Source: a virus. From it: 64,000 nucleotides of DNA. Where the stretch lies: the IMG/VR virus record IMGVR_UViG_3300017755_003154, positions 20,064 through 84,063 of that record. One strand, 5' to 3'. Made by a program: the position numbers and the translations under genes. Below, in pieces: positions 1 through 16,762 of the stretch (within the stretch, counting starts at the first letter, position 1; each line of letters starts with the position of its first letter). The notes under the pieces are model-generated. The model saw only the letters and a program-made list of their open reading frames with translations. It did not search any database and had not been told where the DNA came from.

Positions 1-949
1 CTTGTGTATTAAGTATATTTCTAATATTACTATCTGTATTGTATGGCGATATTTCAGAATTTTCTGGTTTAAGGTCTTGATCAGTATATACAGGAATGCC
101 AAGTTTAGCACATTGGTGAATTAGATCAGCAATATTTGTAGTATTGTAGAAAGAAGCAACTAAAGCAACCATTAGATCAATAGTTGGATATTCTGTCAAC
201 GATTTAAGATTAGCATAAACTTTAGGCCAAGAAGCATTATGTCTAATATAATCATAAACTTTACCTGTACCATCAATACTCAACAATAATTTTACTTTCT
301 TAAATTTTAGAAGTTTTTGAATTAATGGTTTGTTAAATTTTGTACCGTTAGTTGTAAGTTGAATTTCTAATCCGTTAGCATAATTATTATCAATTATCCA
401 ATCAAGTAACCCCATAAAATATTTACAAGCAGTAGGTTCACCTCCTGTAACTTTCCATAATTCTAATCCTTCTTTAACAAGTTTTTTTGTCCATTTTACT
501 TTTCTTAAACTTTCATCTTCTGTTACTTCTGCCCAACCACTAGCAATCCATGATGGAAATTCAGTTTGATCTTTATACAACTCTTCTAATTGATCGCTAT
601 CTGAAGGTTTACACATTCTACATGCAAGATTACATTTATTGCTATATGCAATATCAAGATATTTAATTTTTATTTCTTCTGTATATCCAAATCTTTCAAG
701 TGCTAGTTGTCTATGACTTACCGTATTTCTTTCTTCTTGTACTTTACATTTTTTACAAATTAAGGGCCAGTGTCCGTCTTTCATTTGTTGACGCATTATA
801 TCGTACATACGTGTTTTCAGACCTTTTTCGTAGTTCGCAAACCGCCAAGAGTTTTCTTTTTCAAATACATGACAACAAGGTGTAGGATGTCCTGTAGACC
901 CTATATATTGATGCATGTAAGGTAAAGGACAATATGTTTTAGATGTCAT
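1..949 (-). CDS. N-terminal-Twitch radical SAM protein (3' end outside window)
   Basis: The reading frame is open from ATG at 949 to the left edge (316 codons), so the C-terminus is missing. The N-terminus carries a cysteine pattern (C7, C25-C26, C65, C68) that in this class probably binds an auxiliary Fe-S cluster. It is followed by the radical SAM motif CNLACRMC at residues 106-113 (CxxxCxxC, all three Cys present) and a GGEP-like segment (KVTGGEP) expected to contact SAM. The start lies 11 bases inside the end of the upstream radical SAM gene, so the two are translationally linked. The fold and chemistry class are clear from the motifs. The substrate is unknown. It shares its Cys-first architecture with the genes at 939-2351 and 5599-6687. 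Confidence 0.85.
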   Translation of the reverse strand, partial: MTSKTYCPLPYMHQYIGSTGHPTPCCHVFEKENSWRFANYEKGLKTRMYDIMRQQMKDGHWPLICKKCKVQEERNTVSHRQLALERFGYTEEIKIKYLDIAYSNKCNLACRMCKPSDSDQLEELYKDQTEFPSWIASGWAEVTEDESLRKVKWTKKLVKEGLELWKVTGGEPTACKYFMGLLDWIIDNNYANGLEIQLTTNGTKFNKPLIQKLLKFKKVKLLLSIDGTGKVYDYIRHNASWPKVYANLKSLTEYPTIDLMVALVASFYNTTNIADLIHQCAKLGIPVYTDQDLKPENSEISPYNTDSNIRNILNTQ

Positions 950-2362: not shown

Positions 2363-3424
2363 TTATCTCATGGTTTCTTCATGTATCTGATTGTTGATAG
2401 TGCTAATAATATTTTGTTTACAATGGTGTACACACTTATCAAATATTTCTGTTTGTATTGTATCATGTAAATTACTGTACCAAGGTGAGTCTAAAATTTC
2501 CTGAAAGTTTTTTCCGTTACCAAGGTGAATGTCTTTAAAATTGTATTTTTTATTATAGGTCTTTTCTAAATCTGTTATATGTGCTTCTGTACCCCACCAA
2601 CAGCAAGGAAGCACTGCTCCTTTTACTGTTATATACAATCCTGAATCTAATCCAAAGTAATCTGGTCTTTGAAGTGCTTTACATACAATTTTCTTTGTTG
2701 TTTTCTTTGTATCTAATTCATGTTTGCCTGTGCCTGGAGTTACAATCTTATGTATTCTTGACTTTGTGCCTCTAAATTTTATACGCTCAAATCCTTCATC
2801 AATACTCCGTTGCCTTGCTAGTTCATCTTGATGTTCGTTGTGTTTAAAATATATAAACTGCCAACTTGCTCTACCGCCTGCGGCAATGTATGTTCTAAAA
2901 TTTTCTTGTAGTTTATTCCAGTCTACATTTCTTCTATATAAATGATTAGTGTCTTCTAATCCATCAATACCAAAAATTACATTCAATCGTTGTATTGTTC
3001 CTGGATTTGTAGTGCCGCGCCGAGGTGCTTTTAAATATTGATATTTGTCGGCAAGTTTTCCTAGTTTCCTCCAAAAATCTTTATTCCTTGTACCACCATT
3101 AGTAGCAATGTTAACTTGTAATTGCCGACTAAATATTCCGCTTTCAAAAATCCATTCAATAATATCTAAAAGGTGAGGATTTGTAGTTGGTTCGTCATAG
3201 TTACCGCAAAAATCAATTAGTCTTAGACTCCAAAAAAAGTCTCCGTTGTCAAACCATTTTTTAAATGTTTCTAAACTTACATATGTGTCGTTAATTCCAA
3301 TATGTTGTTTGTCATCTTTTGTTATGCTTTTTTCTCTCGCACACGCCGGGCACCTAGCATTACAATAGTTGCTTATTTCTAATTGTATTTTTTTAACTTC
3401 TTTTATATTAGCAGGCCAACTCAT
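2363..3424 (-). CDS. Radical SAM protein, C-terminal SPASM/Twitch type
   Basis: 353 residues. The radical SAM motif CNARCPAC is at residues 21-28, immediately after the first beta strand, the usual place. The segment DFCGNYDEP replaces the GGEP SAM-binding loop and recurs in the sister proteins as CGNLGDP, CGVLGDP and CGSVDEP. The C-terminal third holds a PCCWWG word (about residue 275) and a CVHHCKQ word (about 330), the likely ligands of an auxiliary cluster. The start ATG overlaps the stop of the upstream PP-loop gene as ATGA. The related genes at 4646, 6659 and 7762 share the layout, so these are lineage duplicates. Function is unknown beyond the enzyme class. Confidence 0.85.
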   Translation of the reverse strand: MSWPANIKEVKKIQLEISNYCNARCPACAREKSITKDDKQHIGINDTYVSLETFKKWFDNGDFFWSLRLIDFCGNYDEPTTNPHLLDIIEWIFESGIFSRQLQVNIATNGGTRNKDFWRKLGKLADKYQYLKAPRRGTTNPGTIQRLNVIFGIDGLEDTNHLYRRNVDWNKLQENFRTYIAAGGRASWQFIYFKHNEHQDELARQRSIDEGFERIKFRGTKSRIHKIVTPGTGKHELDTKKTTKKIVCKALQRPDYFGLDSGLYITVKGAVLPCCWWGTEAHITDLEKTYNKKYNFKDIHLGNGKNFQEILDSPWYSNLHDTIQTEIFDKCVHHCKQNIISTINNQIHEETMR

Positions 3425-4080
3425 TTATATCTTCCGAATCCCCAGTACCTTTCTCGGCACCACCAACACTCTTCGCAATGTTTTTCTATATTATATTTTT
3501 CATGTTTTTCCCATGCTTCGCAACTACGAGTAATTGGAAATAATGTATCCATAACTCCTAGTGTATTATAAAGTTCTGCAACACCCTTCTTATCAATATT
3601 AACTAATGGATTTCTTGTTAGCCTATTTTTAGTAGGAAATTTTTTTCCATTCCTGTTATCTGATGGACCTGTATGCGGTAACCATTGTCTATATATTTTT
3701 TTAGGAGGATTAGAAGTAATGCCACTATATATAATCTTTGCTGGCGTATTAGCCCTTGTTTCATCAACCAATGTATCTTGTGACGAAACATACTTGTTCA
3801 ATTGGCTTGCATGACTTGTTTGATGTTCTACAAATATATCTCCAAACTCGTTTTTTAAAAATTCTAGTACACGTTTAGCATATATTAATTGATATTGTTT
3901 CCCTGCAAGTGTAGTTGTAATAGGCATAATCTTAATATCAGGTCTTTCTTCTACAACAAATTTTGATAACATATAACCAACAATAGCACTATCAGCGCCT
4001 CCGGAAACTTTATATCCTAAAGTTGTTGTTGATTCGTCTTCGACTATGTGTATATCTTGTTGGCTATTTTTAATAATCAT
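3421..4080 (-). CDS. PP-loop ATPase, QueC-like
   Basis: 219 residues from ATG 4080. I chose this start over an in-frame GTG at 4092 because it makes an ATGA overlap with the upstream stop and has GGAG about 10 bases before it. SGGADS at residues 26-31 is the pyrophosphate-binding PP-loop of the adenine-nucleotide alpha-hydrolase family (QueC, GuaA, TilS). The C-terminus has SC followed by HCEECWWCRER, which matches the four-cysteine zinc site of QueC-type 7-cyano-7-deazaguanine synthases. The family activates a substrate carbonyl by adenylation using ATP. No other queuosine or deazaguanine gene is in the window, so the enzyme may act with the flanking radical SAM proteins on another substrate. 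Confidence 0.7.
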   Translation of the reverse strand: MIIKNSQQDIHIVEDESTTTLGYKVSGGADSAIVGYMLSKFVVEERPDIKIMPITTTLAGKQYQLIYAKRVLEFLKNEFGDIFVEHQTSHASQLNKYVSSQDTLVDETRANTPAKIIYSGITSNPPKKIYRQWLPHTGPSDNRNGKKFPTKNRLTRNPLVNIDKKGVAELYNTLGVMDTLFPITRSCEAWEKHEKYNIEKHCEECWWCRERYWGFGRYK

Positions 4081-4649
4081 AATTTTATACACTCCACGTT
4101 AGTATATTTTTGGATTATATCACATCTACCTTGTATCCTGTATAATCCAAATTTAATATATAAAATATCTCCACAATTAATTCTTCTTGTTGATCCTATG
4201 TAATCATGGTTAATATAGTAGTCAACGTTTATTGATTTATTATTAGTATATTCTACGTCTGCTTTTAAATTAAATTTTAATTCTGCTGGTACTGGATTGT
4301 GATCTTTTATAGCAGGAAACGAATTAATATTAAAATGTCCGTTTACAATGTTAAGCATACTAGGAGGTATTCCGGGATCATCACACCCATCATGTATTTG
4401 GAATACTGTAGCCCGGTGAGCATGAAATACTATGGGTGTTATAAATTCTACATCTGCTGAAAAATGATACTTACCAATTGCTAACTTACGTGTTGTTACT
4501 TCGTTACGCTCTTTATAGTCTGCTATTTTTATACCACGCTCGTATTGAGGTTTATCATCTGTGTCTACAGTACCTTTTGCGTTTCTAAAAACATATGTAT
4601 TGCCATCCTGCTCATATGTGCTGGACCATACTGGAAAAAAGTCTATCAT
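4077..4649 (-). CDS. Jelly-roll protein with polysaccharide-lyase-like motifs
   Basis: 190 residues, predicted mostly beta strand. Three short words fall in the order seen in jelly-roll polysaccharide lyases such as PL7: RNEVT (compare R-T/S-E-L/V-R), FQIHDG (compare the QIH catalytic strand) and YIKFGLYRIQ (compare YFKAGIYNQ). The likely reading is a lyase or carbohydrate-binding protein acting on an acidic polysaccharide. The match is by motif only, the first motif lacks its final Arg, and activity is not assured. It overlaps both neighbours by four bases (ATGA junctions) and so belongs to the radical SAM operon. There is no signal peptide. It could equally be a non-catalytic concanavalin-like sugar binder. 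Confidence 0.45.
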   Translation of the reverse strand: MIDFFPVWSSTYEQDGNTYVFRNAKGTVDTDDKPQYERGIKIADYKERNEVTTRKLAIGKYHFSADVEFITPIVFHAHRATVFQIHDGCDDPGIPPSMLNIVNGHFNINSFPAIKDHNPVPAELKFNLKADVEYTNNKSINVDYYINHDYIGSTRRINCGDILYIKFGLYRIQGRCDIIQKYTNVECIKL

Positions 4650-5602
4650 AATTTCTCCTTAACAAATTTATCTCTTATCTTTTCTGCACAAGTACTTTCA
4701 CACTTAGGAATACGCACATCGTCAGTCCAACTGTCTTTGATACCATTCCAAACTTTACTATTCATTGCTTGATCTAAAGTTACATTTTTAAGATTGATAT
4801 CATACATGTAATCATGCTGTGTAAGTAAATCTTCAAACTTATCTTTATGCTTACCACTAACAGGAAATTCTAACATTTTGCTATTCAAATGACAGCATGG
4901 AATAACATTACCCATATGATTTACAAATATACGTTTTTGATTTGCGTACTTACAACTAATACATGCACGTTCTCCAGGATTACGATCTGCTTTTGCTCTT
5001 TTATGTTTAACTTCTTTAGTATCTTTACGATGACTAATAATAGTTTTGAAATCTCTGAAGCCTTCGTCTTTAGCCATTTGCTTTGCAGTTTCTAGTTGAT
5101 GTTCGTTATGTTCAAAACTAATAAACTGCCAAACACTTTGTCCGCCAGCGGCAATAAACGCCTTAAAATTTTGTTGTACTTTCTTAAAACTTGAACCTTC
5201 TCTGTATACTTCTGATAGTTCATCACTTCCGTCAATACCCCAAGTCACTCTATGACTGCATGTTAATTCTTTTGCTAGTTTTTCCCACCACGCTGTAGTG
5301 CGTAAACTTCCATTAGTAGCAATATTAATATGACATCCCCAACTAGCAAAGTGTTTAATAATTTCATGGAACTGAGGATGACTGCACGGTTCGTCTACAC
5401 TGCCACAAAAATTAATAATCTTCATATTTGGAAACATATGTTTTTGGAACTTTTCTTTTATAGTATCCAAGTCAAGATATGTTTTATTAAGTATGTCGTC
5501 TTTATAATCTGATAGCACACGAAAACAGCCTTTGCATTTAATATTACAAAAACTTGTAAGTTCGATATCAATCCATTCTAATGTTTCACTTGACCATGTC
5601 AT
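4646..5602 (-). CDS. Radical SAM protein, C-terminal SPASM/Twitch type
   Basis: 318 residues from ATG 5602. An upstream in-frame ATG at 5614 exists, but 5602 gives the ATGA overlap used throughout this operon and an N-terminus (MTWSSETLEW) matching its sister at 3424. The motif CNIKCKGC is at residues 19-26. FCGSVDEP occupies the SAM-binding loop position. Near the C-terminus, IPCCH and CESTCAEK words supply probable auxiliary-cluster cysteines, with a further ACISCKY pair mid-protein that the sister at 2363-3424 lacks. It should be a radical SAM enzyme of unknown substrate, co-translated with the jelly-roll protein downstream. Confidence 0.85.
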   Translation of the reverse strand: MTWSSETLEWIDIELTSFCNIKCKGCFRVLSDYKDDILNKTYLDLDTIKEKFQKHMFPNMKIINFCGSVDEPCSHPQFHEIIKHFASWGCHINIATNGSLRTTAWWEKLAKELTCSHRVTWGIDGSDELSEVYREGSSFKKVQQNFKAFIAAGGQSVWQFISFEHNEHQLETAKQMAKDEGFRDFKTIISHRKDTKEVKHKRAKADRNPGERACISCKYANQKRIFVNHMGNVIPCCHLNSKMLEFPVSGKHKDKFEDLLTQHDYMYDINLKNVTLDQAMNSKVWNGIKDSWTDDVRIPKCESTCAEKIRDKFVKEKL

Positions 5603-6687
5603 TCGAAGCACCATCCTATTATTTTTTTACTATCTGTTTTACGTTTTACATCTAAGTCTAATAAAAATTGTTGCATCTTTTTATTATATTCATCGTCATA
5701 TGCGTAGTCGCTACAAAAATGTTTTAACTCAGGTACAGTAGTAGTTTCTAAAACTTTTTCTACAACACTTGGTTTTAAACAGTTAATTCTCAAATGGCGA
5801 GGAGCATGAAGTTTATGTATATCATATCTGCCATTCCATCTATCTTTAATATTACTAACAAGAGTATCAATGTTAGGTAAATTCATTGCTTGTACAGTTA
5901 TATTAAAGTATATGTCTTCAGTATCAAGTTGCATTAATTCATCTGTTTGTTCTATAAAAGTATTATGATTAGTAGGAAATCTAATTAATTCATTTACATC
6001 ACCCCAACCATCTATACTCATACTAAATTCTAATCTTTTAAACTTTGATAAAATATTTAAAAATTTTGGAGTATTACTTATACCGTTAGTTTGAATCTGT
6101 ATCCTAGTATTTTCACAATTCCATTTGTGCTTAGATAAGTCACCTAAAAATTTATGTACATTTTTCATATAAAAAGGTTCGCCACCTGCTATATAAATGT
6201 ATTCTGCCTTATCTACAACTTTTGTATAGACCCAATCCCAGTCAATATCTTCTCGTACTCTTCCAATATCTCTTAATTTATAATTATACTTCTGCCATAT
6301 TTCTGCATCTTCCATCCATTTGCTACTATTTGCAGGATTGCACATTGCACATTTTAAATTACATGTGTTACTAGGTCTTAGATCCCATCTAATAATACCT
6401 TTGTCAAAACCTTTTTGTAAACTACGCTTTCGTTTGCTTTCTTTGCCTAGTTCTTCATTCCTTATGCAATCTATACACTCTGGACGTTTCCAGTTTGTAG
6501 CAAATTTTTGTCTTATAGCATTAATATAAGGATTAGATAATAAGTCTTCAATATTTTTTACACCAGTTACCTCATCATTTTTAAAGAGACAACATGGTTG
6601 TGCATTATATCCTTGGTCAGTGAGTTCTACATATAAACTATTCACTGATTCTAAGCACTTATATTGCTTCAACTTTTTCATTTTCAT
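5599..6687 (-). CDS. N-terminal-Twitch radical SAM protein
   Basis: 362 residues. The Cys-first architecture is clear: C11, PCC at residues 31-33, and C71/C74 (CIDC), then the radical SAM motif CNLKCAMC at 109-116 and IAGGEPF as the SAM-binding loop. It is shorter than the sister at 939-2351. ATG 6687 overlaps the end of the upstream gene. An alternative ATG at 6681 would remove two residues and is not excluded. It ends four bases into the following radical SAM gene. The pairing of N-Twitch genes with C-terminal-type genes along the operon suggests different members handle different steps or substrates. That is inference. Confidence 0.85.
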   Translation of the reverse strand: MKMKKLKQYKCLESVNSLYVELTDQGYNAQPCCLFKNDEVTGVKNIEDLLSNPYINAIRQKFATNWKRPECIDCIRNEELGKESKRKRSLQKGFDKGIIRWDLRPSNTCNLKCAMCNPANSSKWMEDAEIWQKYNYKLRDIGRVREDIDWDWVYTKVVDKAEYIYIAGGEPFYMKNVHKFLGDLSKHKWNCENTRIQIQTNGISNTPKFLNILSKFKRLEFSMSIDGWGDVNELIRFPTNHNTFIEQTDELMQLDTEDIYFNITVQAMNLPNIDTLVSNIKDRWNGRYDIHKLHAPRHLRINCLKPSVVEKVLETTTVPELKHFCSDYAYDDEYNKKMQQFLLDLDVKRKTDSKKIIGWCFE

Positions 6688-7765
6688 CTCTTATTTCGTT
6701 ATGATAGGCTTTATTGTAAGCACAAGTTCTAATACATCTTTTTAAATGCTTTGGATGAGTTGGATTCCAACTGTCTCCAAGGATTTTTTTATACCAAGGA
6801 TGTTGCATAATTTCAGTTATACTTTTATCTTTAAGACTATTCCAACCAGTACCGTATTCAGCAAGTTTTTCATTTATATTATCGTTACCCTTTGCCGCCC
6901 AGTCGCTTAAAAAACAACAAGGCCACATTGTTAAGTTAGCCGCAATAAATATTTCTCCTTCGTGTATATATTTGCATTGTATTGTTTGTAATACTTCTAC
7001 TGTTTCTTTTTCTGTTTTATTTTCTTTAGCAATAAACTTATCAAGTTCTTTCACTTGTTCTACTTTACTGTGTTCTTTTTTTCCTGTAGTAGTAATAACC
7101 TTTTCTGTAGTGACAACTTTCTTTTGCTTATGATCTTTCTTTTTAATTTTAGCCGTCCATTGATGGAAACTATTACGCATACCTGTACGAGTTGCAAAAT
7201 TAAATCCTAAACGTTTTGCATGTTCTCTTGCCGCTTCAAGTTCATGTTCATTATGATCAAAAACAATAAACACCCACTTCGCTCGATATACATATTCGCC
7301 TACAGTTTCTACAAAAGCATTCATATTTCTTTCTAATACTTTCCATTTTGTGTTTACTCTGTAAATATGATTAGTTTGTTCATGCCCGTCTATACACCAA
7401 TGTAAATGAAACCGCTTTTCGTGGTCGTGACAAAGTTGCCCTATTTTACGCCACATGTCTGCTGTGCCGACTGCACCATTAGTACTGATGCTACACACTG
7501 CTCCACACAATAATAGATATTCTAGCATTTCAGCAAACTCAGGATGTATTGCAGGATCTCCTAATACCCCACAAAATTTAAATTCTACTCCTTGATAACT
7601 ATTAGGTGGAAAAATTCTTTTTAGATCAGCAAAACTAAAGTCTTGTACTTTAAGTGTTCCGTCAATAGCGGCATCAGTTCTTGCACAACCAGGGCAAGCC
7701 GCATTGCAGTTACTTGTAATTTCTAATTCTACTTTTTTTAAATCAGAAATATCTGTTAAAATCAT
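6659..7765 (-). CDS. Radical SAM protein, C-terminal type with Lys-rich insertion
   Basis: 368 residues. CNAACPGC at residues 20-27 is the radical SAM motif, and FCGVLGDP holds the SAM-loop position. The C-terminus carries MWPCCF and a CIRTCAY word as auxiliary-cluster ligands. A strongly basic, Lys/Thr-rich stretch of roughly 50 residues (about 205-260) interrupts the second half. It is low complexity and looks like a linker or nucleic-acid-contacting tether. A similar charged insertion occurs at the same place in the next gene (7762-8844), so those two are the closest pair. The start shares an ATGA junction with the gene upstream. Substrate unknown. Confidence 0.85.
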   Translation of the reverse strand: MILTDISDLKKVELEITSNCNAACPGCARTDAAIDGTLKVQDFSFADLKRIFPPNSYQGVEFKFCGVLGDPAIHPEFAEMLEYLLLCGAVCSISTNGAVGTADMWRKIGQLCHDHEKRFHLHWCIDGHEQTNHIYRVNTKWKVLERNMNAFVETVGEYVYRAKWVFIVFDHNEHELEAAREHAKRLGFNFATRTGMRNSFHQWTAKIKKKDHKQKKVVTTEKVITTTGKKEHSKVEQVKELDKFIAKENKTEKETVEVLQTIQCKYIHEGEIFIAANLTMWPCCFLSDWAAKGNDNINEKLAEYGTGWNSLKDKSITEIMQHPWYKKILGDSWNPTHPKHLKRCIRTCAYNKAYHNEIRDENEKVEAI

Positions 7766-8844
7766 TTAAACTGCTCCGCATACGGATCAAATTCGCTACC
7801 ACATTTTTGGGCGCAAACGCCTAATTTACCATCGGCAATACTATCTTTTTGCCAACTTGTAGTAATACTATTGATCAATTTTCCGTTAACCACGTGTTTA
7901 ATGTCGTTATCAATAATACTTATGCCATCCTTGCCGCCAGCACTATCTATATGATCCCATACTTGTTCTACACGAGGATCAGCATGCCACCATTTGTACA
8001 TGCGTCCAGCAGTCCAACAACATGGCATTAATAATCCTTCTGCTGTTACAAATATGCTTCCTTGCTTTGCCACCTTACAAGTTATACTACACTTATCTAA
8101 ATAATCTTTCATACTTCCGTAAGATTTTTCAATTTCTTTTTGTTTTAATAATGCTAAATTTTTATTCTTTTCATCTTTAGGCTGTGCTAGATTTTGTGTT
8201 TCAGCACCTTTTCGATTTACTGCTTGGTGTGATGTTTTAGGTTTGATATCACTTGTAATAAATCTACCTGATTTTTTCTTAATAAACTTTTCACACCCCC
8301 ATTGATTAGCAAGTGCTTCTGCTTCTTCAACTTGATGTTCGTTGTGTTGAAATATTAAAAAGTCCCAACGGGCTCTACCGCCTGCGTCAATAAATGCTTG
8401 CATGTTTCTTTCAACGTTATTCCATACAACATTTTGTCTATACAAATGATTAGTATCACGTAATCCGTCAACACTAAAAATTACTGCTCCTCTACGTCCT
8501 ATTACTTGTGCTAATCTTGCCCACCAGTAAATATCTTTAGCACCTGCATTAGTATTCATACTAAGCCACATATTAGGATTATGTTCTCTAAAATATTCAA
8601 ATACTTCTAATGTATCTCGTGCAACAATAGGATCTCCTAAGTTACCACACATATACATTACATTTAATTGCTTAATAAAGTCAGGACTAAACATACGCTT
8701 TGCATCTGCTAAACTAAGTTCAGCATTTGTTATGTGAGGATTATCTGCGCCACCATTCATATTACGGTCGCACATAGGACAAGCCGCTTGACACTTCTGC
8801 GTAATTTCTAAGTGTACTTCTTTTATGTCTTCGTATCTATACAT
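7762..8844 (-). CDS. Radical SAM protein, C-terminal SPASM/Twitch type
   Basis: 360 residues. The motif CQAACPMC sits at residues 18-25, CGNLGDP marks the SAM-binding loop, and the C-terminal words MPCCWTAG and CAQKCGSE give the expected auxiliary cluster cysteines. A charged Lys/Gln-rich insertion around residues 200-240 parallels the one in 6659-7765. This is the first radical SAM gene in transcription order, starting 22 bases inside the end of a 79-residue gene. The enzyme class is firm, the role unknown. Its GLRDTNHLYRQN word recurs in its C-terminal-type sisters as DTNHLYRRN or QTNHIYRVN, showing common descent. Confidence 0.85.
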   Translation of the reverse strand: MYRYEDIKEVHLEITQKCQAACPMCDRNMNGGADNPHITNAELSLADAKRMFSPDFIKQLNVMYMCGNLGDPIVARDTLEVFEYFREHNPNMWLSMNTNAGAKDIYWWARLAQVIGRRGAVIFSVDGLRDTNHLYRQNVVWNNVERNMQAFIDAGGRARWDFLIFQHNEHQVEEAEALANQWGCEKFIKKKSGRFITSDIKPKTSHQAVNRKGAETQNLAQPKDEKNKNLALLKQKEIEKSYGSMKDYLDKCSITCKVAKQGSIFVTAEGLLMPCCWTAGRMYKWWHADPRVEQVWDHIDSAGGKDGISIIDNDIKHVVNGKLINSITTSWQKDSIADGKLGVCAQKCGSEFDPYAEQFK

Positions 8845-9062
8845 TCGATTACTAGTTTAACATCCTTTCCTGGACCTGTTTCGCTTGGAAGTCCTCCGTA
8901 TGTATTTACATACCAATCAATCACAGCCGCATACCAATTTTGGCTGTTATGATGTGCTTGTTTGTTAAACTGATAAATGTTATTATTAGTTGCTTCCATA
9001 CAACTCAAGGCTCTAGCACTTTCAGTTTGTAGTTGCCTAAGTGTTAGTTTACTTGTATCCAA
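8823..9062 (-). CDS. Small hypothetical protein in the radical SAM operon
   Basis: 79 residues, mostly helical by composition, with a Trp/Tyr/Asn-rich middle (NSQNWYAAVIDWYVN) and a Gly/Pro turn after it. I do not recognise the family. It overlaps the end of the large repeat protein by 14 bases and the start of the first radical SAM gene by 22 bases, which supports it being translated. Small proteins next to radical SAM maturases are sometimes peptide substrates, but this one lacks an obvious leader/core division and the idea is only a possibility. Confidence 0.6.
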   Translation of the reverse strand: MDTSKLTLRQLQTESARALSCMEATNNNIYQFNKQAHHNSQNWYAAVIDWYVNTYGGLPSETGPGKDVKLVIECIDTKT

Positions 9063-12000
9063 TTTTCATATACCTTGTATACTGACCTAAATCAAGTTCG
9101 CCTTCATATAATACTTTTTGCATTGGCGTACTTGAACTAAATTCTTTTAAGTTATTTGAACAGTTCACATGTTCTTTAATTGCAAAGTAATTGTTACTTT
9201 GTAATATAATTAATCTGCTTTCTGGTAGCAGGTTATACCAATCTTTGAAATTATCAATATGTTCACAACTTGTATTAACAATAGTGTGTGGCATATCAGT
9301 CAACGGTATTATTGCACCGTCTAATTTTTCTGTGTTATAGTTGTGTTCAATATAATCAATATGCATAATATCTTGTGTACTTGCTTTAAACTGCCAACCT
9401 TCATTAACTAGATCAGCATTAAACGTTTCTGCAATTTTCCATGCTTCGGGATCAATATCAAAACTACGAATTTTTTCGAAGTCTAATTTTGCTTCTTGCA
9501 TTAATGGCACAATACTAGCATACCAACCTGCACATAAAAATATAGTACCTAATGGTAAATTTAATTTTGTAAGTTCGTCAACCAGCCATTTTTTACTTTT
9601 TAATTGTCCACGGCTCATTACATCTTTGTCATATTCTATTTTGTGCTTGTCTAATATTTCTAATGGTTTTACAAATGCACTTCCTGTATGCTTATCGAGT
9701 ACACGCCACAATGCATGTCTATTATTATCCATAGTTAAATTAACTTCATCAGTTACACTTGGCTCAATACGTTTGACACTCCACATATTTTTATAGAAGC
9801 CTGCCTTTTTAATATCTTCAACAATATTATCTTTATCTTCAATTAGTCTAAACAAACTCATTTCATTTGATTCAACTAGTGCTTTTCGTAAATCATCTGT
9901 TGTATCGCTTTCGTTTATCAATCTAAATAAACTATGTACATTTTTTTCTGTAACTGCTTTACGCAAGTCTTCGTATTCGTCACCTAGTAATCTAAATAAA
10001 CCATGGAAGTTTTTTTCTAATGTTGCTTTGCGTAAATCTTCATAGTCATTGCCTAGTATTCTAAACAGACCGTGTAAATTCTTGTCAATCATTGCTGTAC
10101 GTAAATTATCATGGCTTGGTCCTAACAGTCTGAACAAACTATGCAAGTTATCTTCTGTTACTACTTTACGTAGTTCTTCGTGTTCGTCACCTAACAATCT
10201 AAATAGACTGTGCAAGTTTTCTTCTACCACAGTTTTACGTAGATCTTCGTGTTCATCACCAACAAGTCTAAATAGACTATGCACATTATCTTCAGTTACT
10301 GCTTTTCGTAACTCCTCGTGATCTTCGCCTAGTAATCTAAACAAACTATGTACATTTTTTTCAATATACATTTTTCTAATATCTTCGATATCTTCAATAC
10401 CTTTATTTTCTAAATATCTAAATAAACTGTGATAGTTTCTTTCTTCAACAAATTTACGTAAATCTTCATCTCCAATTATTTTAAGTATGTCTAACATATG
10501 TCCATCGTTATAAAAACGTCTAATATTAGTTACTTTATCACCGTATAATATTTCAAATCTATCTAATAAGTCTACAATAAATGTGTCTCTGGGCGGTAAT
10601 GGTTCATCTTCTTTATATGGAACAGTTTGTTTCCATCCAGTATCTTCTTGTATTTCAACAGGTGCAATATCAACTGGCTTTGTTGTAACTGTGTCAGCAT
10701 CTCTATATAGTTTTTGCCACTCTTCTGTAGTATCAGTAGTTTCTGTAAACTGTTCGTATAGCCAATTAAAATCATTTATTAGCCGAAGGTCAGCCCCGCT
10801 AGAAAGGCCAAACTCCATACCAGCGGTAGCGCCTGCCAAAGCATATTTCCCAAATGGTCTATCGTGTCCCACGGTTGTCCAAGTTTTAAGTCTTTCATTT
10901 GTTTCATTTTCCTTTTGTCTGTCGATTACTTTACTGCTTAATTTTGCACATTCTCTAAATGCACCACGCCAAGTACTGAACTCGCTTGAGTTGAATGCAG
11001 TTATGCAAGATATTCCTTCCATCTTCTTAAATCTATCACTAATACTTGTAGTCATGTCTGGACGACTTGTATCCATATCACGTGTCATTTGCGTAGGAAA
11101 CAATTTTACACCTCCATAGCCATACACTAAATCATTAATAGGATTTTGACTACGCCATACATGCACTGCTCTACTATCTTCTACTTCATAATCAAAATTA
11201 AAATCATCTGCTATAACAGCATCACCGTCTACAATCCAAAACATCTCAGTAGAACAAATATTTGCCGCGGCAATATGTGCTTGATGTATTCCTTTGACTC
11301 CGTGTATACGTTGGGCTCTCGGAAAACGTGTTTTTAACTTATCAAAGTTTTCATCTGCATTTGCTTCGTCATAAGATATCATTACAATATCATATTCTAC
11401 TTTTTTATTAGGAATAAAGTTTGACGAAAAAGTATTAAATTGTGTAGTAGTTGTGCGTATATAAGGATGTTCTGGTCTTGGTGGGTTGCGGTATGTGCTT
11501 TTAAAAAACTTGCTTTGTTGAGCATCTAAGGGCGTTACAGCAATAGGAATATCCAACTGTACTTTTAATCTTTCGCCGTAGTCTTGGCATGCTTCTAGTA
11601 AATCGCTTTCGTCTTGGACTTTTTCTTTCCATAATTTATTCAAGTATTCAAAATCACGAACATTAACATAGTCCCAATCAGTACACATTGTTTTATATAA
11701 GCCTTCTCTTGCTCCATGTATTGCCCAAAGACCGTTTTCTACATCTGCACCTGCCATAGTCCATATATACAAACGTTCTAGATTTTTCCAATGATTGCCA
11801 ATAAGTTCATTTTTTGCTGGTTTCATTCCTTCAATCAGCGACATCTTAACACCTTCACGGAAACCAGCACGCCATGCTTGATGTGGTGTAGCATTATTAT
11901 AGACTGTACTCATTAAACTATTAATTTGAATATATTCTAAATCCCAACAAAAGTCAATACCTGCCGCAATATTATCAGGATCTGCATTTTCGTGAGTTTT

Positions 12001-12360
12001 CATTTTTAAGACTGTTTCTCTATCCCAACATTTTATACCACCATTGCCATAACGCAATCCGTTGATAATATTATCAGCAGTCCAACTAACTACGTGTCTA
12101 GACAGATCCACACCATCTTGAAAATTAATTGTTTGATTTAAAAACTGTTCATCTATTTGATTGTCTCCGTCAATAGTAATAAAACGTTTTGTTTCTGCTA
12201 TGTTTGCACACGCTTTATGAGAAGCATCTGATCCTTCTACTCCGTGTATGCGTTTTGCCCAAGGGGCTTTGGTCAGTAAATCTGCATAATTTTCTTCAGC
12301 ATTTGGCTCGTCATACGACAAGTATATAATGTCGTAGTCTAGAACTTTAAATTGTTTCAT
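9049..12360 (-). CDS. Tandem glycosyltransferase-like / 23-residue repeat / methyltransferase-like protein
   Basis: 1,103 residues from ATG 12360. The frame extends upstream to a TTG at 12381, but the ATG gives the better start and still overlaps the previous gene. Two related domains open the protein (about 1-230 and 320-520). Each begins with a hydrophobic strand plus SYDEPNAEENY or SYDEANADENF and contains IDGDNQID or VDGDAVIAD, the DxD-type signature of nucleotide-sugar glycosyltransferases. Residues about 640-840 form an array of 23-residue units centred on HSLFRLLG...DLRK. The C-terminal part (about 935-1103) has FLCAGWYAS and SFDIDPEAW, resembling SAM-binding motifs I and II of a class I methyltransferase. 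The fusion suggests sugar transfer plus methylation on one scaffold. Target unknown. Confidence 0.65.
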   Translation of the reverse strand: MKQFKVLDYDIIYLSYDEPNAEENYADLLTKAPWAKRIHGVEGSDASHKACANIAETKRFITIDGDNQIDEQFLNQTINFQDGVDLSRHVVSWTADNIINGLRYGNGGIKCWDRETVLKMKTHENADPDNIAAGIDFCWDLEYIQINSLMSTVYNNATPHQAWRAGFREGVKMSLIEGMKPAKNELIGNHWKNLERLYIWTMAGADVENGLWAIHGAREGLYKTMCTDWDYVNVRDFEYLNKLWKEKVQDESDLLEACQDYGERLKVQLDIPIAVTPLDAQQSKFFKSTYRNPPRPEHPYIRTTTTQFNTFSSNFIPNKKVEYDIVMISYDEANADENFDKLKTRFPRAQRIHGVKGIHQAHIAAANICSTEMFWIVDGDAVIADDFNFDYEVEDSRAVHVWRSQNPINDLVYGYGGVKLFPTQMTRDMDTSRPDMTTSISDRFKKMEGISCITAFNSSEFSTWRGAFRECAKLSSKVIDRQKENETNERLKTWTTVGHDRPFGKYALAGATAGMEFGLSSGADLRLINDFNWLYEQFTETTDTTEEWQKLYRDADTVTTKPVDIAPVEIQEDTGWKQTVPYKEDEPLPPRDTFIVDLLDRFEILYGDKVTNIRRFYNDGHMLDILKIIGDEDLRKFVEERNYHSLFRYLENKGIEDIEDIRKMYIEKNVHSLFRLLGEDHEELRKAVTEDNVHSLFRLVGDEHEDLRKTVVEENLHSLFRLLGDEHEELRKVVTEDNLHSLFRLLGPSHDNLRTAMIDKNLHGLFRILGNDYEDLRKATLEKNFHGLFRLLGDEYEDLRKAVTEKNVHSLFRLINESDTTDDLRKALVESNEMSLFRLIEDKDNIVEDIKKAGFYKNMWSVKRIEPSVTDEVNLTMDNNRHALWRVLDKHTGSAFVKPLEILDKHKIEYDKDVMSRGQLKSKKWLVDELTKLNLPLGTIFLCAGWYASIVPLMQEAKLDFEKIRSFDIDPEAWKIAETFNADLVNEGWQFKASTQDIMHIDYIEHNYNTEKLDGAIIPLTDMPHTIVNTSCEHIDNFKDWYNLLPESRLIILQSNNYFAIKEHVNCSNNLKEFSSSTPMQKVLYEGELDLGQYTRYMKIGYK
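9845..10440 (-). repeat. 69-base in-frame repeats (23-residue HSLFR units)
   Basis: Within the large protein a unit of 69 bases recurs with strict spacing: the HSLFR/HGLFR codons fall near 9920, 9989, 10058, 10127, 10196, 10265 and 10334, with longer degenerate units at both ends. The protein consensus is x-H-S/G-L-F-R-L-L-G-D-x-H/Y-E-D/E-L-R-K-x-x-x-E-x-N. DNA copies differ at many third positions, so the array is old and kept by selection on protein rather than freshly amplified. About nine units are recognisable. Confidence 0.9.
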
Positions 12361-12865
12361 CAAAAAATCCGTATGTATCAAAAATCTTTGGCGTATATAT
12401 ACTTACATCGCCACGCTCTTCTTCATAGTTAAAGTTGACTGTATACCCTTTAGTAATTTGTTCTACTGTTGCTGTAAATGTTCTAATTAATAAATGAGGA
12501 TCATTTGCTTTTGTAATACTAAATTTACATTGTTGTCTTGGATTTAACAGCATTTCTTTTTTAACATTTACAACTAATTCCCATTTGTCTGTACGTTTTA
12601 TAATACAATCTCCTATACTTTGTTTAGGTACATGATATATTACATCTTTAATATCATATGTAAATTTAGGTTTTTCATATGCTAGTATTACATATTTCTT
12701 CTGTGCAAGATCATACTTTACAACAAAATTATCTTTCTTGTCAGGATTAGACATAAAGTCAATATATTGGTCTTCATTTACTTCTAAACAAAATTCTGTT
12801 TCAGGAGTATAATTTTGTAAACCAGTAATTCTACTTGTATCTTTATCAAATATTAGCCAGTACAT
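12347..12865 (-). CDS. Hypothetical protein
   Basis: 172 residues, beta-rich, with no motif I recognise. The first residues (MYWLIFDKDTSRITGL) and the segment FTATVEQITKGYTVNFNYEE suggest a small beta-sandwich. It overlaps the glycosyltransferase gene upstream by 13 bases and the large repeat protein downstream by 14, so it is an integral member of the accessory operon. Its position between glycosyltransferases makes a role in the same modification or attachment process plausible, but this is context only. Confidence 0.7.
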   Translation of the reverse strand: MYWLIFDKDTSRITGLQNYTPETEFCLEVNEDQYIDFMSNPDKKDNFVVKYDLAQKKYVILAYEKPKFTYDIKDVIYHVPKQSIGDCIIKRTDKWELVVNVKKEMLLNPRQQCKFSITKANDPHLLIRTFTATVEQITKGYTVNFNYEEERGDVSIYTPKIFDTYGFFDETI

Positions 12866-13659
12866 TTTTCATACCTTGCTAAAATTTTATCACAAAAGTC
12901 TTTTTCAGTATAATGAAAAACGCCATGCTGTTTATGGTTTCCAATTTTAAGTCCGTCATTAAAATACCAATCTACTTTTTCTTGCCAATGCTCACTTGTA
13001 TCTACCCAATTTTGTGCATGTAACTTCATATGTACAAAGTCTATTAAGTCTACTTGTTGAAAGTTGTCATACTCCATAAGTTCTAATACAATGGCCGCAC
13101 ATACATCTATACTACAATGCTTTGGTTTAAATTCTTTACAAAATACATCATAAAAATCTTCCCAATCTTTAATCACAGTTTCTAATAATGCAAAGAATTG
13201 TGCTACACGTTTTGTTTTTTTAAAGTAATACAATCCTGCATACACATTAAATAAATAATTTTGTGAAAATACTTTTCTGTAATACGTGTCGTTGATAGGT
13301 TCTTGTCTGTAGGTAATTGGATTTTGTGTAAAATATAACTCTTCTTTTTCAAATTTTTTCCAATCAATTTTATCTAAAAATAATACATCACTATCAACTA
13401 CAATAGTTTCTTTATATGGACTAAGATTAAATGCTTTCCATCTATTTTCTATTTTCCATTCACTAGACTTTGCCTGATCGTGTTTTAAAACAATTACTTT
13501 ATCAAATATAAAGGCTGTTTTTTCATCAACTTCTTTATCAGTTACAAGAGTGAAATGTTTATTTCCACTATGCATACCGCTCAATGCACACAGATAGGCT
13601 TGTTTTACATAATCATCAGTTGTATTATTTTGTGCAAAGATTAAAATTCCTTTGGTCAT
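12853..13659 (-). CDS. Glycosyltransferase-like protein (DxD)
   Basis: 268 residues. An N-terminal Rossmann-like start (GILIFAQNN) is followed by DYVKQAYLCA and, near residue 95, IVVDSDVLFLD, where DSD is the metal and nucleotide-sugar binding DxD of GT-A fold glycosyltransferases. It is a paralog of the next gene (13656-14453), sharing the KGI-I-N-DYVKQA opening and the DSD block at the same place. The start makes an ATGA overlap with that gene. The likely role is transfer of a sugar from a nucleotide donor. Acceptor unknown. No membrane segment is visible, so it should act in the cytoplasm. Confidence 0.7.
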   Translation of the reverse strand: MTKGILIFAQNNTTDDYVKQAYLCALSGMHSGNKHFTLVTDKEVDEKTAFIFDKVIVLKHDQAKSSEWKIENRWKAFNLSPYKETIVVDSDVLFLDKIDWKKFEKEELYFTQNPITYRQEPINDTYYRKVFSQNYLFNVYAGLYYFKKTKRVAQFFALLETVIKDWEDFYDVFCKEFKPKHCSIDVCAAIVLELMEYDNFQQVDLIDFVHMKLHAQNWVDTSEHWQEKVDWYFNDGLKIGNHKQHGVFHYTEKDFCDKILARYEKCTG

Positions 13660-14453
13660 AGTAATTCCTCTAAATTAAACTTATTCATTGCATGTACAGT
13701 CATGTTTTTTGTCTTAATTGGATTGTTGTCTATTATAAATGTAAGTTCATCGTCTTTTATACTATGTAACGTATCCTTGTCAATAGTATAATATAGTTTA
13801 CCTGGCATAGGACCAACAAAATTTGCTTTGCTATGGCCACTCATTATGTGTATACCAATACTAAACGCAAAATCATTACGATATGTTTGTTGTGTTATTT
13901 GATATAACATTCTATAATGCGTCCATTCTTCTTCTATATGCTGTAATAAATCAAAAAATATTTTATTTTGTTTACATTTTGTAAAATATACACAAGTTGC
14001 CCAATAAAAGTCTACACTTGCATCGCTTACTTTATCAAATTCTCTATAATCAATATGTTTTGATTCATTTGCTAAATGATATGCTTTCCTATACATTAAT
14101 AAAGGATTGTTTTGTGTAAAACAGTTTTTATAAGTATCATCACAAATAATAATATCACTATCAATCATTAAAGTTTGATCATATGGAGTTAATTCATAAC
14201 TTAACACCCTTGCATTGTTTTTAAATGTAAGGTGTTTTCCGTTATTACCATTATTGTATAATTTTTTTGTGTATCTTTGCGGAGTATTAAATTTTATTAC
14301 GTTATCAAATACTGAATTATCAATATCCATATCAGTAATTACACTTGTAGGCAAGTCAAGATGCTTCTTAGCACGTTTAGCAACATCTATTGCTTGCTTT
14401 ACGTAATCTATTTCTTCATTGTTAAATGCATGAACAATTATGCCTTTAGACAT
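13656..14453 (-). CDS. Glycosyltransferase-like protein (DxD), paralog of neighbour
   Basis: 265 residues from ATG 14453. An upstream in-frame ATG at 14480 would add nine residues, but 14453 aligns with the paralog's MTKGILIF start (MSKGIIVHAF) and has an AGGGAA ribosome site. EEIDYVKQAIDVAKRAKKH follows the first strand. TLMIDSDIIICDD carries the DxD motif expected to bind a metal and nucleotide sugar. A duplicated glycosyltransferase pair beside a larger tandem-domain glycosyltransferase points to building a short glycan or to decorating several sites. Donor and acceptor cannot be read from the sequence. Confidence 0.7.
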   Translation of the reverse strand: MSKGIIVHAFNNEEIDYVKQAIDVAKRAKKHLDLPTSVITDMDIDNSVFDNVIKFNTPQRYTKKLYNNGNNGKHLTFKNNARVLSYELTPYDQTLMIDSDIIICDDTYKNCFTQNNPLLMYRKAYHLANESKHIDYREFDKVSDASVDFYWATCVYFTKCKQNKIFFDLLQHIEEEWTHYRMLYQITQQTYRNDFAFSIGIHIMSGHSKANFVGPMPGKLYYTIDKDTLHSIKDDELTFIIDNNPIKTKNMTVHAMNKFNLEELL

Positions 14454-14781
14454 CAAGAATTCCCTGTACGGTACGTTCACTTTTTATTAATTTTTGATAT
14501 TCTGTATGATAAGTTTTTAACGCAGTTGAATATGCTTCTACTAAAGCATCATAAAATTCACCTCTATTTTTTATTTCAATAGGAGTATTGTTATTATCTA
14601 CAAAAATACAACTGTTAATTGTCTTTAAACTTGCAATGTATTCTCTTGAAGCAGTAAATTGCCCGCCATCATAATAGATTGTAGATTGTTTGTCAAACTG
14701 GTTTAGTAGTACACGCTTTTGATTTTTAAATGTTGTAACATAATCTGCATGTTCAAGTGCTTTTTTTAGACGTTGATCCAT
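14446..14781 (-). CDS. Small hypothetical protein, first gene of accessory operon
   Basis: 111 residues, helical, with a central segment (YYDGGQFTASREYIASL) and a Tyr/Lys-rich C-terminal helix. I do not recognise a defined family. It overlaps the glycosyltransferase start by eight bases. It is the promoter-proximal gene of the minus-strand accessory operon: the sigma-70 promoter at 14,802-14,830 is 21 bases upstream of its ATG. The position next to the fibre cluster could suggest a chaperone-type role, but nothing in the sequence establishes it. Confidence 0.7.
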   Translation of the reverse strand: MDQRLKKALEHADYVTTFKNQKRVLLNQFDKQSTIYYDGGQFTASREYIASLKTINSCIFVDNNNTPIEIKNRGEFYDALVEAYSTALKTYHTEYQKLIKSERTVQGILDV

Positions 14782-14833: not shown

Positions 14834-15772
14834 TTAACTGCCAGAATAAGCAGATTGTAATGTGAAAGTAGGAACCGGAGTATTTACATAAACGCCACTT
14901 GCTCTAACAAAGCCTAACTCTGTTGTTAAAGTGCCTTGAACTAGTTCATCAACGTGTGCTGAACCTTTTCCTGTATCATCTCCAATATCTGCTTCGTTCT
15001 GATTTATACGAAATTCTATTACTGTAGTTGATACTTCTCTTCCTCTAATGTAATAGTTGTTATCTGCATAAACACCACTACCTGTTCTTCTAAAAAGTTG
15101 CTGTTCTGAAGAAGTTAATTGAAAATTACCGATTGCACTACCAGTACCAGTACCGCTTGCTGAAGTATAGTTATAACCAAAACTTACTGTGCCTGCATTT
15201 GACAACATAGTTGCCCAATCATTTGTTTTAGAAACATTTCCGCCACTTGCTGAACTAGACAAACTACTTACAAATGTAATAGTACCACCTGCATTAAAAA
15301 AATGTCTACGTGCATCTGCACTAGTAAAAGTTACTCTAAAATAAGCATTTAAATTTTGATTCCAATCTGATGAAAACGAAGATGATACTGAATTACTTCC
15401 TGATGTTGATTGTAATGGTGCTAGTCTAAATCTATTTGGTGATGATTCTAAAGTATTCATTGACTGTTCATAGTCAACAAATCCTTTTAATGTGCCATCT
15501 GGATCATCACTTGTCTCGTCAGCAATTAAATCTCCAATAGCAATAGTAGCAATAGTTCCAGCCGCTTGGTTAGTTTGGTGTCTATTAATTCTATCAATGT
15601 CTGTCTTTAACTGATTTACGTGGGTTGCAGTAACTATTTGGTCTACAGCGACTTGTCCACTTGCTGTAGTTTCACCATAGCCTTCAGTGCCAGAACCGAG
15701 GGCAAGAATATTCTCTACACGAGTCTGTAAAGCATTATATCTAGTTGCGGTAATTAGATCACCAACGGCCAT
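14834..15772 (-). CDS. Virion/tail-fibre-associated structural protein
   Basis: 312 residues, Ser/Thr/Gly-rich beta protein with no enzymatic motif. The N-terminus (MAVGDLITATRYN) and the phrase ARRHFFNAGGTITF are typical of a structural family found beside tail fibres in marine T4-like phages. That assignment is by pattern memory. It is a clear paralog of the upstream gene 15816-16724 along its whole length, so the pair arose by tandem duplication. RBS AGGAG precedes the ATG, and the leader contains a small TACGG/CCGTA hairpin (15,786-15,801). It is the last gene of the late baseplate/fibre run. Confidence 0.7.
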   Translation of the reverse strand: MAVGDLITATRYNALQTRVENILALGSGTEGYGETTASGQVAVDQIVTATHVNQLKTDIDRINRHQTNQAAGTIATIAIGDLIADETSDDPDGTLKGFVDYEQSMNTLESSPNRFRLAPLQSTSGSNSVSSSFSSDWNQNLNAYFRVTFTSADARRHFFNAGGTITFVSSLSSSASGGNVSKTNDWATMLSNAGTVSFGYNYTSASGTGTGSAIGNFQLTSSEQQLFRRTGSGVYADNNYYIRGREVSTTVIEFRINQNEADIGDDTGKGSAHVDELVQGTLTTELGFVRASGVYVNTPVPTFTLQSAYSGS

Positions 15773-15815: not shown

Positions 15816-16724
15816 CTAAAGACTATTTATGGCCGAAAATGCTGGTGCTGGGGTATCTACATTCGATCCACTTGCCCTTACAAATCCTATTTTGGCTTCT
15901 AAAAGTCCTTGAACTGGTTCATCAATTTTGTAGCCAGATACTGCGGCATCAAAAAATTCGTATTTTATATGTATAGTAGAACTAGTAGGCGCCTTAGCAT
16001 AAAGAATATAATTATTGTTGCCATATACTCCTGTTGCTGATTTTCTATATATTTCTTGGTATGATGTTGTTAAATCAAAATTACCAATACTTTGTACAAC
16101 TCCAGATCCTGAAGTTGTAGTTACATCATAGTTCATATTCACTGTGCCAGCGTTTCCAAGTATTGCGGCCCAGTCTTGACTTTTTGCAACACTATCACCA
16201 CTAGTTGGAGTTCCGCTCAAAGAACTTACAAATGTTAAAGAGCCTCCAGCATTAAAAAAATGCCTACGTGCATTACTATCTGCAAATGACACTTGAAACT
16301 CACATTCAATTGGTGCTGTCCATTGATTTCGTCTTTGAATTACTTCAGCATTATTAAGTGTACTACTTTGAGAGCCTGCTAATCTAAATCTATTGCTTGC
16401 CGTTTCAATAATACTGATAAAATCTTCATAGTCTTTGAAGCCTTCTTTAGTGTCTGCTCCGCTTGTATCTTCAGCAACAGTGTCACCTACTTCTACTTCT
16501 GCAATAGAATTTGGGTTACCACCTGTTTGATGAACAAAAATTTTCTTTAAATCTGTAAACATGGCGTTTACATGAGTTGCATCTATAATAACATTGCTTG
16601 ATACTTGTGAACTAGCGACAGTTTGTCCGTAACCTTCATTAGTTGATCCAACTCCAAGGATTGCTTCTACTCTTCCTTGTGCGTTGTTGTATCTTGCGGC
16701 TGTAATTAAATCGCCAACTGCCAT
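15816..16724 (-). CDS. Virion/tail-fibre-associated structural protein, paralog
   Basis: 302 residues. Aligns end to end with 14834-15772: MAVGDLITAARYN start, NEGYGQTV, ARRHFFNAGGSLTF, and a shared C-terminal KIGFVRASG / ELGFVRASG block. Low Cys content and a Ser/Thr/Gly-rich makeup fit an exposed virion component. The two copies diverge most in the middle third, as expected for surface regions. It is preceded by a late-type promoter motif and follows the three fibre genes. Possibly a short fibre, fibre tip or adaptor. Exact role not established. Confidence 0.7.
   Translation of the reverse strand: MAVGDLITAARYNNAQGRVEAILGVGSTNEGYGQTVASSQVSSNVIIDATHVNAMFTDLKKIFVHQTGGNPNSIAEVEVGDTVAEDTSGADTKEGFKDYEDFISIIETASNRFRLAGSQSSTLNNAEVIQRRNQWTAPIECEFQVSFADSNARRHFFNAGGSLTFVSSLSGTPTSGDSVAKSQDWAAILGNAGTVNMNYDVTTTSGSGVVQSIGNFDLTTSYQEIYRKSATGVYGNNNYILYAKAPTSSTIHIKYEFFDAAVSGYKIDEPVQGLLEAKIGFVRASGSNVDTPAPAFSAINSL
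15824..15831 (-). promoter_or_regulatory. Late promoter motif CATAAATA
   Basis: On the minus strand CATAAATA lies about 50 bases upstream of ATG 15,772, inside the end of the previous gene. It fits the T4 late consensus TATAAATA recognised by gp55-bound polymerase. Confidence 0.45.
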
Positions 16725-16754: not shown

Positions 16755-16762
16755 TATTTATA
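16755..16762 (-). promoter_or_regulatory. Late promoter motif TATAAATA
   Basis: A perfect T4 late consensus TATAAATA on the minus strand, about 30 bases upstream of ATG 16,724 and overlapping the end of the upstream fibre gene. Confidence 0.6.

Follow-up and report, generated by a model that had tools for sequence, protein, structure and literature searches.

The operon around the fused gene

The analysed window, 64,000 nucleotides of the viral record IMGVR_UViG_3300017755_003154, carries a gene on its minus strand in which sugar-transfer, repeat and methylation modules are fused (9049..12360; 1103 aa from the ATG at 12360 to the stop at 9049). From N- to C-terminus, the encoded protein consists of two GT-A glycosyltransferase (GT) domains, an array of 23-residue repeats and a class I SAM methyltransferase (MT) domain. 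An in-frame TTG start offers an alternative reading of 1110 aa (12381..9049, minus strand). The ATG is the start used in the coordinates of the original prediction, which named no strand, and the positions of the repeat words given below count along the 1110-aa reading. A plus-strand open reading frame (10583-11119) lies antisense within the gene.

The fused gene belongs to an operon of closely packed genes, all on the minus strand, which opens with a conserved late promoter followed by tail-fibre genes. The promoter, a T4-type TATAAATA (16755..16762), lies 38 nt from the start of fib302 and is conserved in relatives. The late-promoter call rests on the conserved position of this motif, which in many loci with flanking sequence stands 26-45 nt ahead of fib302/fib312 and is rare elsewhere, and not on its count, since the motif is not enriched across the window (3 found vs 12 expected). 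The first gene after the promoter, fib302 (15816..16724), and its paralogue fib312 (14834..15772) appear from position and sequence to encode tail-fibre-type proteins. They are followed by p111 (14446..14781), of unknown function and conserved in the operon; by GTc (13656..14480) and its paralogue GTb (12853..13659; 29% identity over 99 aa), the latter a possible glycosyltransferase with a weak mannosyltransferase match; and by p172 (12347..12865), also of unknown function, the upstream neighbour that is conserved in close relatives.

Immediately downstream lies p79 (8823..9062), an overlooked small gene of 79 codons with a TTG start, which shares 14 nt with the fused gene and 22 nt with the next gene, rS6. 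It is conserved in >100 loci (dN/dS about 0.11). Six radical SAM genes complete the cassette, with rS6 (7762..8844) and rS1 (939..2351) as its conserved core. Two of them, rS1 and rS4 (5599..6687), encode twitch-domain proteins of the NF033640 family (418.9 and 208.7 bits, respectively; curated cut-off 170), while rS5 (6659..7765), rS3 (4646..5614) and rS2 (2363..3424) are radical SAM/SPASM-like. Between rS3 and rS2 lie p190 (4077..4649), of unknown function, and a gene for a QueC/NAD-synthase-like protein (3421..4092).

Domains of the fused protein

GT1 (11482..12360, minus) and GT2 (10702..11427, minus) are assigned by fold and by a DGD motif in each. The two domains are 34% identical (E 3e-37), and the DxD aspartates (D67 and D69 of the alignment) are invariant across 43 aligned domains, so that the metal motif is kept in both. 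The AF2 model of this region (pLDDT 87) has a GT-A fold in each domain. Pfam Glycos_transf_2 did not match the window protein, and gave weak matches in 19 of 40 relatives (best E 2e-4). A single GT domain reached a best VIA Z of 11.5, and the best Foldseek matches of the tandem were bifunctional or tandem-GT enzymes, namely K4 chondroitin polymerase (K4CP; 8e-7), heparosan synthase 2, LH3 and LARGE1. Like the fused protein, K4CP and heparosan synthase 2 carry tandem GT-A domains on one chain, but they share about 6-11% identity with it, place their domains differently (TM about 0.2) and have neither a methyltransferase nor a solenoid. The low TM-scores of the tandem to K4CP (0.22-0.26, rmsd 16-18) mean that GT1 and GT2 are placed unlike the domains of K4CP, which limits the support to the domain fold.

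The repeats occupy 9793..10473 (minus), within an all-helical region (9646..10584, minus; residues 40-352 of the predicted model, aa 600-912). H[SG]LFR words stand at aa 651, 678, 701, 724, 747, 770, 793 and 816, and are followed by MSLFR at aa 841, which brings the array to nine units, and by a degenerate HALWR unit at aa 889; the spacing is 27, then 23 six times, then 25. Thus, the 1,103-residue frame with about nine 23-residue repeats that had been proposed is borne out, with eight to ten repeats counted. Mean DNA identity between units is 0.64, 0.87 and 0.50 at codon positions 1, 2 and 3, a pattern that indicates protein-level constraint on the repeats. Among 128 distinct units from relatives, N(-2) is kept in 123, F in 119 and R(-9) in 117; R(+4) occurs in all 128, as imposed by the search pattern, whereas N(-2) and R(-9) lie outside that pattern and are conserved far above chance. 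In the joint model with the MT domain, the repeats are predicted to form an alpha-hairpin solenoid of short alternating helices (about 12 and 8 residues) with a mean pLDDT of about 91 (mostly 80-97), rather than an extended coiled coil between modules, of which the model contains none. Pfam gave scattered sub-threshold matches (DUF4197, BBS2_CtH, ARM_PUB, HEAT) and assigned no family to the repeats, and a VIA search with the joint model returned essentially methyltransferases alone. Weak matches of the repeat region to sequences of solved structures (designed armadillo proteins, E 0.009; myosin) were judged compositional. A role for the repeats as a docking scaffold is possible.

The MT domain (9052..9642, minus) contains SRGQ, AGWY, FDID and NTSCEH motifs and has a Rossmann-like methyltransferase fold with an acidic residue after strand 2; the second aspartate of FDID is invariant. 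Its top VIA match was NodS, a chitooligosaccharide N-methyltransferase (Z 16.3 over 161 residues), with which it has the class I fold in common and 8% identity. As NodS was tied with BioC and other methyltransferases, the fold gives no substrate identity. The original assignments of twin GT-like domains, repeats and a SAM-methyltransferase-like end were therefore right in each part.

Relatives in phages and bacteria

Relatives of the fused protein are common in IMG/VR marine phages, where the GT, repeat and MT parts are also found as separate genes. The fusion occurs in two separate clades, and several phages encode a separate repeat-methyltransferase (REP-MT) protein that is not tethered to the GTs. 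Repeats are always N-terminal to the methyltransferase; relatives have between 0 and 13 of them, and turnover is seen between sister sequences. At the limits used, INPHARED contained no relative of the whole fused protein, GT2, GTc or p79; the sole match to the MT domain there was a putative methyltransferase of Pelagibacter phage Mosig EXVC030M (MT647606), which is 26% identical, has no repeats and no GT1/GT2 match, and lies near genes annotated as MoaA-type (radical SAM-like), carbamoyltransferase and aminotransferase. A broader setting is known from the pelagimyophage host recognition cluster, a variable region of marine T4-like phages that combines tail fibres with glycosyltransferases and radical SAM cassettes; the portion of that paper available to us does not describe the fused protein, the repeats, p79 or a chromosomal counterpart (PMC7029224).

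The enzyme set is also present, unfused, in bacterial chromosomes. Across 143 genomes of one Bdellovibrionota class, the MT occurs in 9 of the 11 that have the GTs vs 21 of the 132 others (p 1e-5, kinship ignored), although GTs and MT often lie on different contigs. In chromosomal loci, rS1 (up to 59%) and rS6 (41-46%) are joined to GTs or the MT. These chromosomes carry orthologous radical SAM genes, and no repeat of the 23-residue H[SG]LFR kind was detectable in them. Tail-fibre genes are absent from their cassette, which therefore has no inherent tie to a fibre target.

A possible glycan-tailoring pathway and its alternatives

Our preferred reading, held with moderate confidence, is that the fused protein is a late-expressed, multifunctional glycan-tailoring enzyme with a solenoid as spacer or docking rod, working in a radical-SAM pathway whose target is likely on the virion. 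Given their fold, pairing and DxD motifs, GT1 and GT2 may be two active glycosyltransferases that act sequentially on one acceptor; the C-terminal domain would then methylate their product, probably a sugar chain, in line with cellular MT homologues that have three glycosyltransferase genes and an ABC transporter as neighbours. The solenoid would set the distance between the MT and the GT pair, or dock the substrate or partner enzymes, without being the substrate itself. The conserved late promoter and packed operon suggest expression together with the tail-fibre genes, and co-occurrence points to one pathway for the fused protein, rS1 and rS6. The target would tentatively be a protein of the virion, for instance a tail fibre, and failing that the host surface. 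Two points count against this explanation: it is hard to see what radical SAM enzymes would do in a scheme of glycan building alone, and the Bdellovibrionota cassette has no tail-fibre genes with it. If it is true, the tail-fibre operon of abundant marine phages encodes a route to a methylated glycan on virion or host, together with radical SAM chemistry that, to our knowledge, has not been linked to virion modification. The repeat array would then be a natural experiment on the tuning of enzyme reach, and the chromosomal counterpart offers a way to seek the product outside the phage.

Several other readings draw on the same evidence. It is unlikely, in our view, that what the enzymes alter during infection is instead the polysaccharide of the host surface, for example to exclude competing phages, a role that the authors of the pelagimyophage study proposed for the glycosyltransferases of the host recognition clusters (PMC7029224). 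The neighbours of the cellular MT homologues would fit this as well. Exclusion genes are, however, usually expressed early, and the operon here looks late, with tail-fibre genes first; moreover, of the operon genes read, none stood out as a lipid-carrier or membrane-bound glycosyltransferase. We also consider it unlikely that the product of the cassette is a small peptide or cofactor, modified by the radical SAM enzymes, which the fused protein would glycosylate and methylate while the solenoid docks it. Mycofactocin biosynthesis combines the radical SAM enzyme MftC with oligoglycosylation by MftF and 2-O-methylglucose (PMC7491314), that is, the same set of radical SAM enzyme, GT2-type glycosyltransferase and sugar methylation, and the peptide S-glycosyltransferases ThuS (Z 10.6) and SunS (Z 9.7) are among the structural matches of the GT domain. 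In phages, the foremost candidate substrate would be p79, which lies between MT and rS6 with overlapping ends and under the constraint noted above; yet, in contrast to a typical leader/core precursor, it is conserved along most of the protein, and the Bdellovibrionota loci, though they retain the enzymes, yielded no p79. Nor does rS6 reach the cut-off of 265 bits for the mycofactocin maturase model MftC (TIGR03962), with a score of 33; in the NCBIfam scan, which covered rS1, rS2, rS4 and rS6, the other three were likewise far below cut-off or absent. The fused enzyme and solenoid have no counterpart in mycofactocin biosynthesis.

The suggestion that the adjacent radical SAM enzymes use the repeats as a multi-core substrate now looks highly improbable. 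Regular conserved words do stand beside six radical SAM genes, and the mean number of such genes downstream climbs with repeat class (3.4, 3.5, 4.7, 5.9; kinship ignored). But the solenoid is predicted to be well folded, and radical SAM orthologues persist without repeats: rS6 beside 16 of 18 repeat-free relatives vs all 8 with at least 7 repeats, rS1 beside 13 of 18 vs 7 of 8, and both in the chromosomes, where no such repeat was detectable. A multi-core RiPP precursor was rejected on these grounds, as maturase-like genes exist without the repeats. Quite unlikely, in our view, is a sharper form of the preferred reading, with the solenoid as a molecular ruler: repeat number would set the distance from polymerising GTs to a terminating MT, and hence glycan length, as for the WbdD coiled coil. 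The original prediction knew of no described protein of this plan, which holds for the fused-protein family, where none was found, but not for the plan itself: ORF6 of Klebsiella pneumoniae O7, a methyltransferase-kinase with a coiled coil and two GT2 modules (PMC11231755), already has two GT modules, an elongated spacer and a methyltransferase on one chain, and the fused phage protein is a variant of that plan. In WbdA-WbdD of E. coli O9a/Klebsiella O3 the modules are divided between two partner proteins (PMC11231755, PMC3482155), as in the split phage forms. The functions shared with ORF6, and a rod built from 0-13 similar units, a count that changes fast, speak for a ruler. Their spacer is nevertheless a coiled coil and not an alpha-hairpin solenoid, both systems include a kinase domain that was not seen here, and the domain order is reversed, with the GTs N-terminal in the phage protein. 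The setting also differs, here a tail-fibre operon of a phage that includes radical SAM genes, and the likeness is one of plan, without a demonstrated sequence relation. Compared with the ruler-type systems (WbdD, WbbB, ORF6-O7), GT, GT and MT stand on one chain here. REP-MT proteins separate from GTs in several phages speak against a ruler, as do H, S, F, R and N conserved in every unit, beyond the needs of a spacer unless they are packing residues.

The boldest form of these ideas, which we regard as quite unlikely, is a phage glycan assembly line whose length dial is a fast-changing array of helical repeats, set between a two-domain polymerase and a capping methyltransferase. By gaining or losing repeats, phages would retune a glycan of the virion or the surface, within an undescribed GT/radical-SAM/methyltransferase pathway shared with Bdellovibrionota chromosomes.

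Plan and predicted structure of the fused protein

The fused protein most likely performs two glycosyl transfer steps and methylates a glycan, is expressed late alongside the tail fibres, and belongs to a conserved glycosyltransferase/radical SAM/methyltransferase pathway. Its gene lies on the minus strand, from an ATG at 12360 to a stop at 9049 (1103 aa). An alternative TTG start at 12381 gives 1110 aa, and residue numbers follow this longer reading. The window comes from an 84,063-base virus record in IMG/VR, and we take the genes neighbouring the fused one to be of T4-like marine phage type. The original prediction of two glycosyltransferase-like domains, repeats and a methyltransferase-like end in one chain is confirmed by the reading frame, the motifs and the located repeat words. 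GT1 (residues 8-300) and GT2 (319-560) are 34% identical, and both DxD aspartates are invariant in an alignment of 43 domains. H[SG]LFR words are found at residues 651, 678, 701, 724, 747, 770, 793 and 816, with a mid-array period of 23 residues, followed by the variants MSLFR (841) and HALWR (889). The conserved blocks SRGQ, AGWY, FDID and NTSCEH fall within the C-terminal 200 residues.

AlphaFold2 models built with alignments of relatives (mean pLDDT 87 for GT1-GT2, 91 for the remainder) and structure matches bear out the domain reading, with two GT-A domains in GT1-GT2 and a class I methyltransferase at the C-terminus. The top Foldseek matches spanning both glycosyltransferases, K4 chondroitin polymerase (8e-7), heparosan synthase 2, LH3 and LARGE1, all contain tandem glycosyltransferases; their TM-scores are low, so the placement of GT1 and GT2 differs from theirs. 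By VIA, a single glycosyltransferase domain reached at most Z 11.5 (B4GALNT1), with ThuS at 10.6 and SunS at 9.7, while the methyltransferase matched NodS at Z 16.3, equal to BioC and others. The repeat region is predicted to be an alpha-hairpin solenoid, in which helices of about 12 residues (DEHEDLRKTVVE) alternate with helices of about 8 (VHSLFRLV), joined at a conserved asparagine.

Relatives and the role of the repeats

A scan of viral contigs gave 360 matching stretches coding for a relative, of which the best 80 were kept, and a second scan with the methyltransferase gave 80 more loci, some shared with the first set. Relatives form a series of architectures: a single fused chain, GT1-GT2 with a separate repeat-methyltransferase protein, three separate proteins, and repeat-free versions. 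The repeats invariably abut the methyltransferase on its N-terminal side; they number 0-13 across relatives and 5-13 in the closest, and differ in count between sister sequences. A quick methyltransferase tree with many weak forks places fusion in a single main clade and, apart from it, in another clade that has no repeats. Four loci carry two neighbouring methyltransferase paralogues after GT2, with repeats detected in the second only. In the loci L066, L067 and L080 (17965-20527), ORFs of about 850 aa combine weak N-terminal GT2-like segments with a full C-terminal GT2 domain, a sequence pattern that suggests additional glycosyltransferase duplication.

The repeats had also been proposed, speculatively, as a multi-site substrate of the adjacent radical SAM enzymes. 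Where a locus had 5 kb or more of downstream sequence, we counted orthologues of the radical SAM genes rS6 and rS1. They accompany, respectively, 16 of 18 and 13 of 18 loci that lack repeats, 19 of 19 and 17 of 19 that have one to three, 14 of 15 and 13 of 15 that have four to six, and 8 of 8 and 7 of 8 that have at least seven. More repeats do go with more radical SAM genes (3.4 to 5.9), a trend not separable from kinship or contig span. Bdellovibrionota chromosomes, on contigs reaching 937 kb, carry GT1 and GT2 together with rS1 at up to 59% identity and rS6 at 41-46%, and lack such repeats. Since rS6 and rS1 persist both there and beside repeat-free relatives, these enzymes can do without the repeats, and a substrate role is unsupported. 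The repeats may act as a spacer or in docking.

Cellular counterparts and known systems

The phage cassette has a cellular counterpart in eight Bdellovibrionota loci, some with the methyltransferase, which in part of the Bdellovibrionota loci adjoins rS1 and rS6. Across 143 genomes of one Bdellovibrionota class, the methyltransferase occurs in 9 of the 11 having the glycosyltransferases versus 21 of the 132 others (Fisher p 1e-5, or 5e-9 for strong hits only, kinship uncorrected), the two often on different contigs. Alphaproteobacterial homologues of the methyltransferase, rhizobial and other, adjoin a conserved three-glycosyltransferase gene set and an ABC transporter. This co-occurrence and these neighbours tie the methyltransferase to glycan synthesis. 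In four Bdellovibrionota methyltransferases the N-terminus is long, variable and helical-looking, and it bears longer repeats of LRxA..SLN type, which the phage repeat profile did not detect. A bacterial ORF of 1220 aa (locus L267, 9895-13557) starts with a GT2-like domain and extends into a further region.

The closest described plans are WbdA/WbdD and Klebsiella O7 ORF6, a methyltransferase-kinase with a coiled coil and two GT2 modules (PMC11231755). The fused protein lacks their coiled coil and is therefore not a member of this type, although it perhaps works like them. The radical SAM/glycosyltransferase/methyl set resembles mycofactocin (PMC7491314), a likeness we treat as a lead only.

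The late operon and p79

The phage gene order is fib302/fib312 (tail-fibre-type genes), p111, GTc, GTb, p172, the fused gene, p79, rS6, more radical SAM genes and rS1, varying among phages by gains and losses. In the window, consecutive genes overlap from p111 to rS2, and a short gap precedes rS1. A T4 late promoter, TATAAATA, lies at 16755-16762 (minus strand), 38 nt upstream of fib302. The same sequence stands 26-45 nt upstream of fib302/fib312 in many relatives having enough flank; other copies are rare, with almost none elsewhere in the compared loci. This conserved position places the fused gene in what appears to be a tail-fibre operon expressed late; fib302 and fib312 are named as fibre genes from their position and the character of their sequence, not from a family match.

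Between the fused gene and rS6, overlapping both, is the previously overlooked p79 (9062..8823, minus strand, TTG start). Its frame is open in more than 100 loci (108 sequences, 79 distinct), with a TTG, ATG or GTG start at the same position in 75 of the 79. Median dN/dS is 0.11, and p79 is under purifying selection in phage loci. Searches of Pfam, PHROG and INPHARED gave no significant match. It occurs also beside repeat-free relatives. Phage-type cassettes also occur on four genome-collection contigs labelled as Neisseriaceae, Rickettsiales, Neomarinimicrobiota and Gammaproteobacteria MAGs. Three of these contigs have p79, and all four probably come from phages and were binned into bacterial genomes. 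Within the radical SAM cluster lies a QueC/NAD-synthase-like gene (3421-4092, minus strand), and similar genes recur in relatives.
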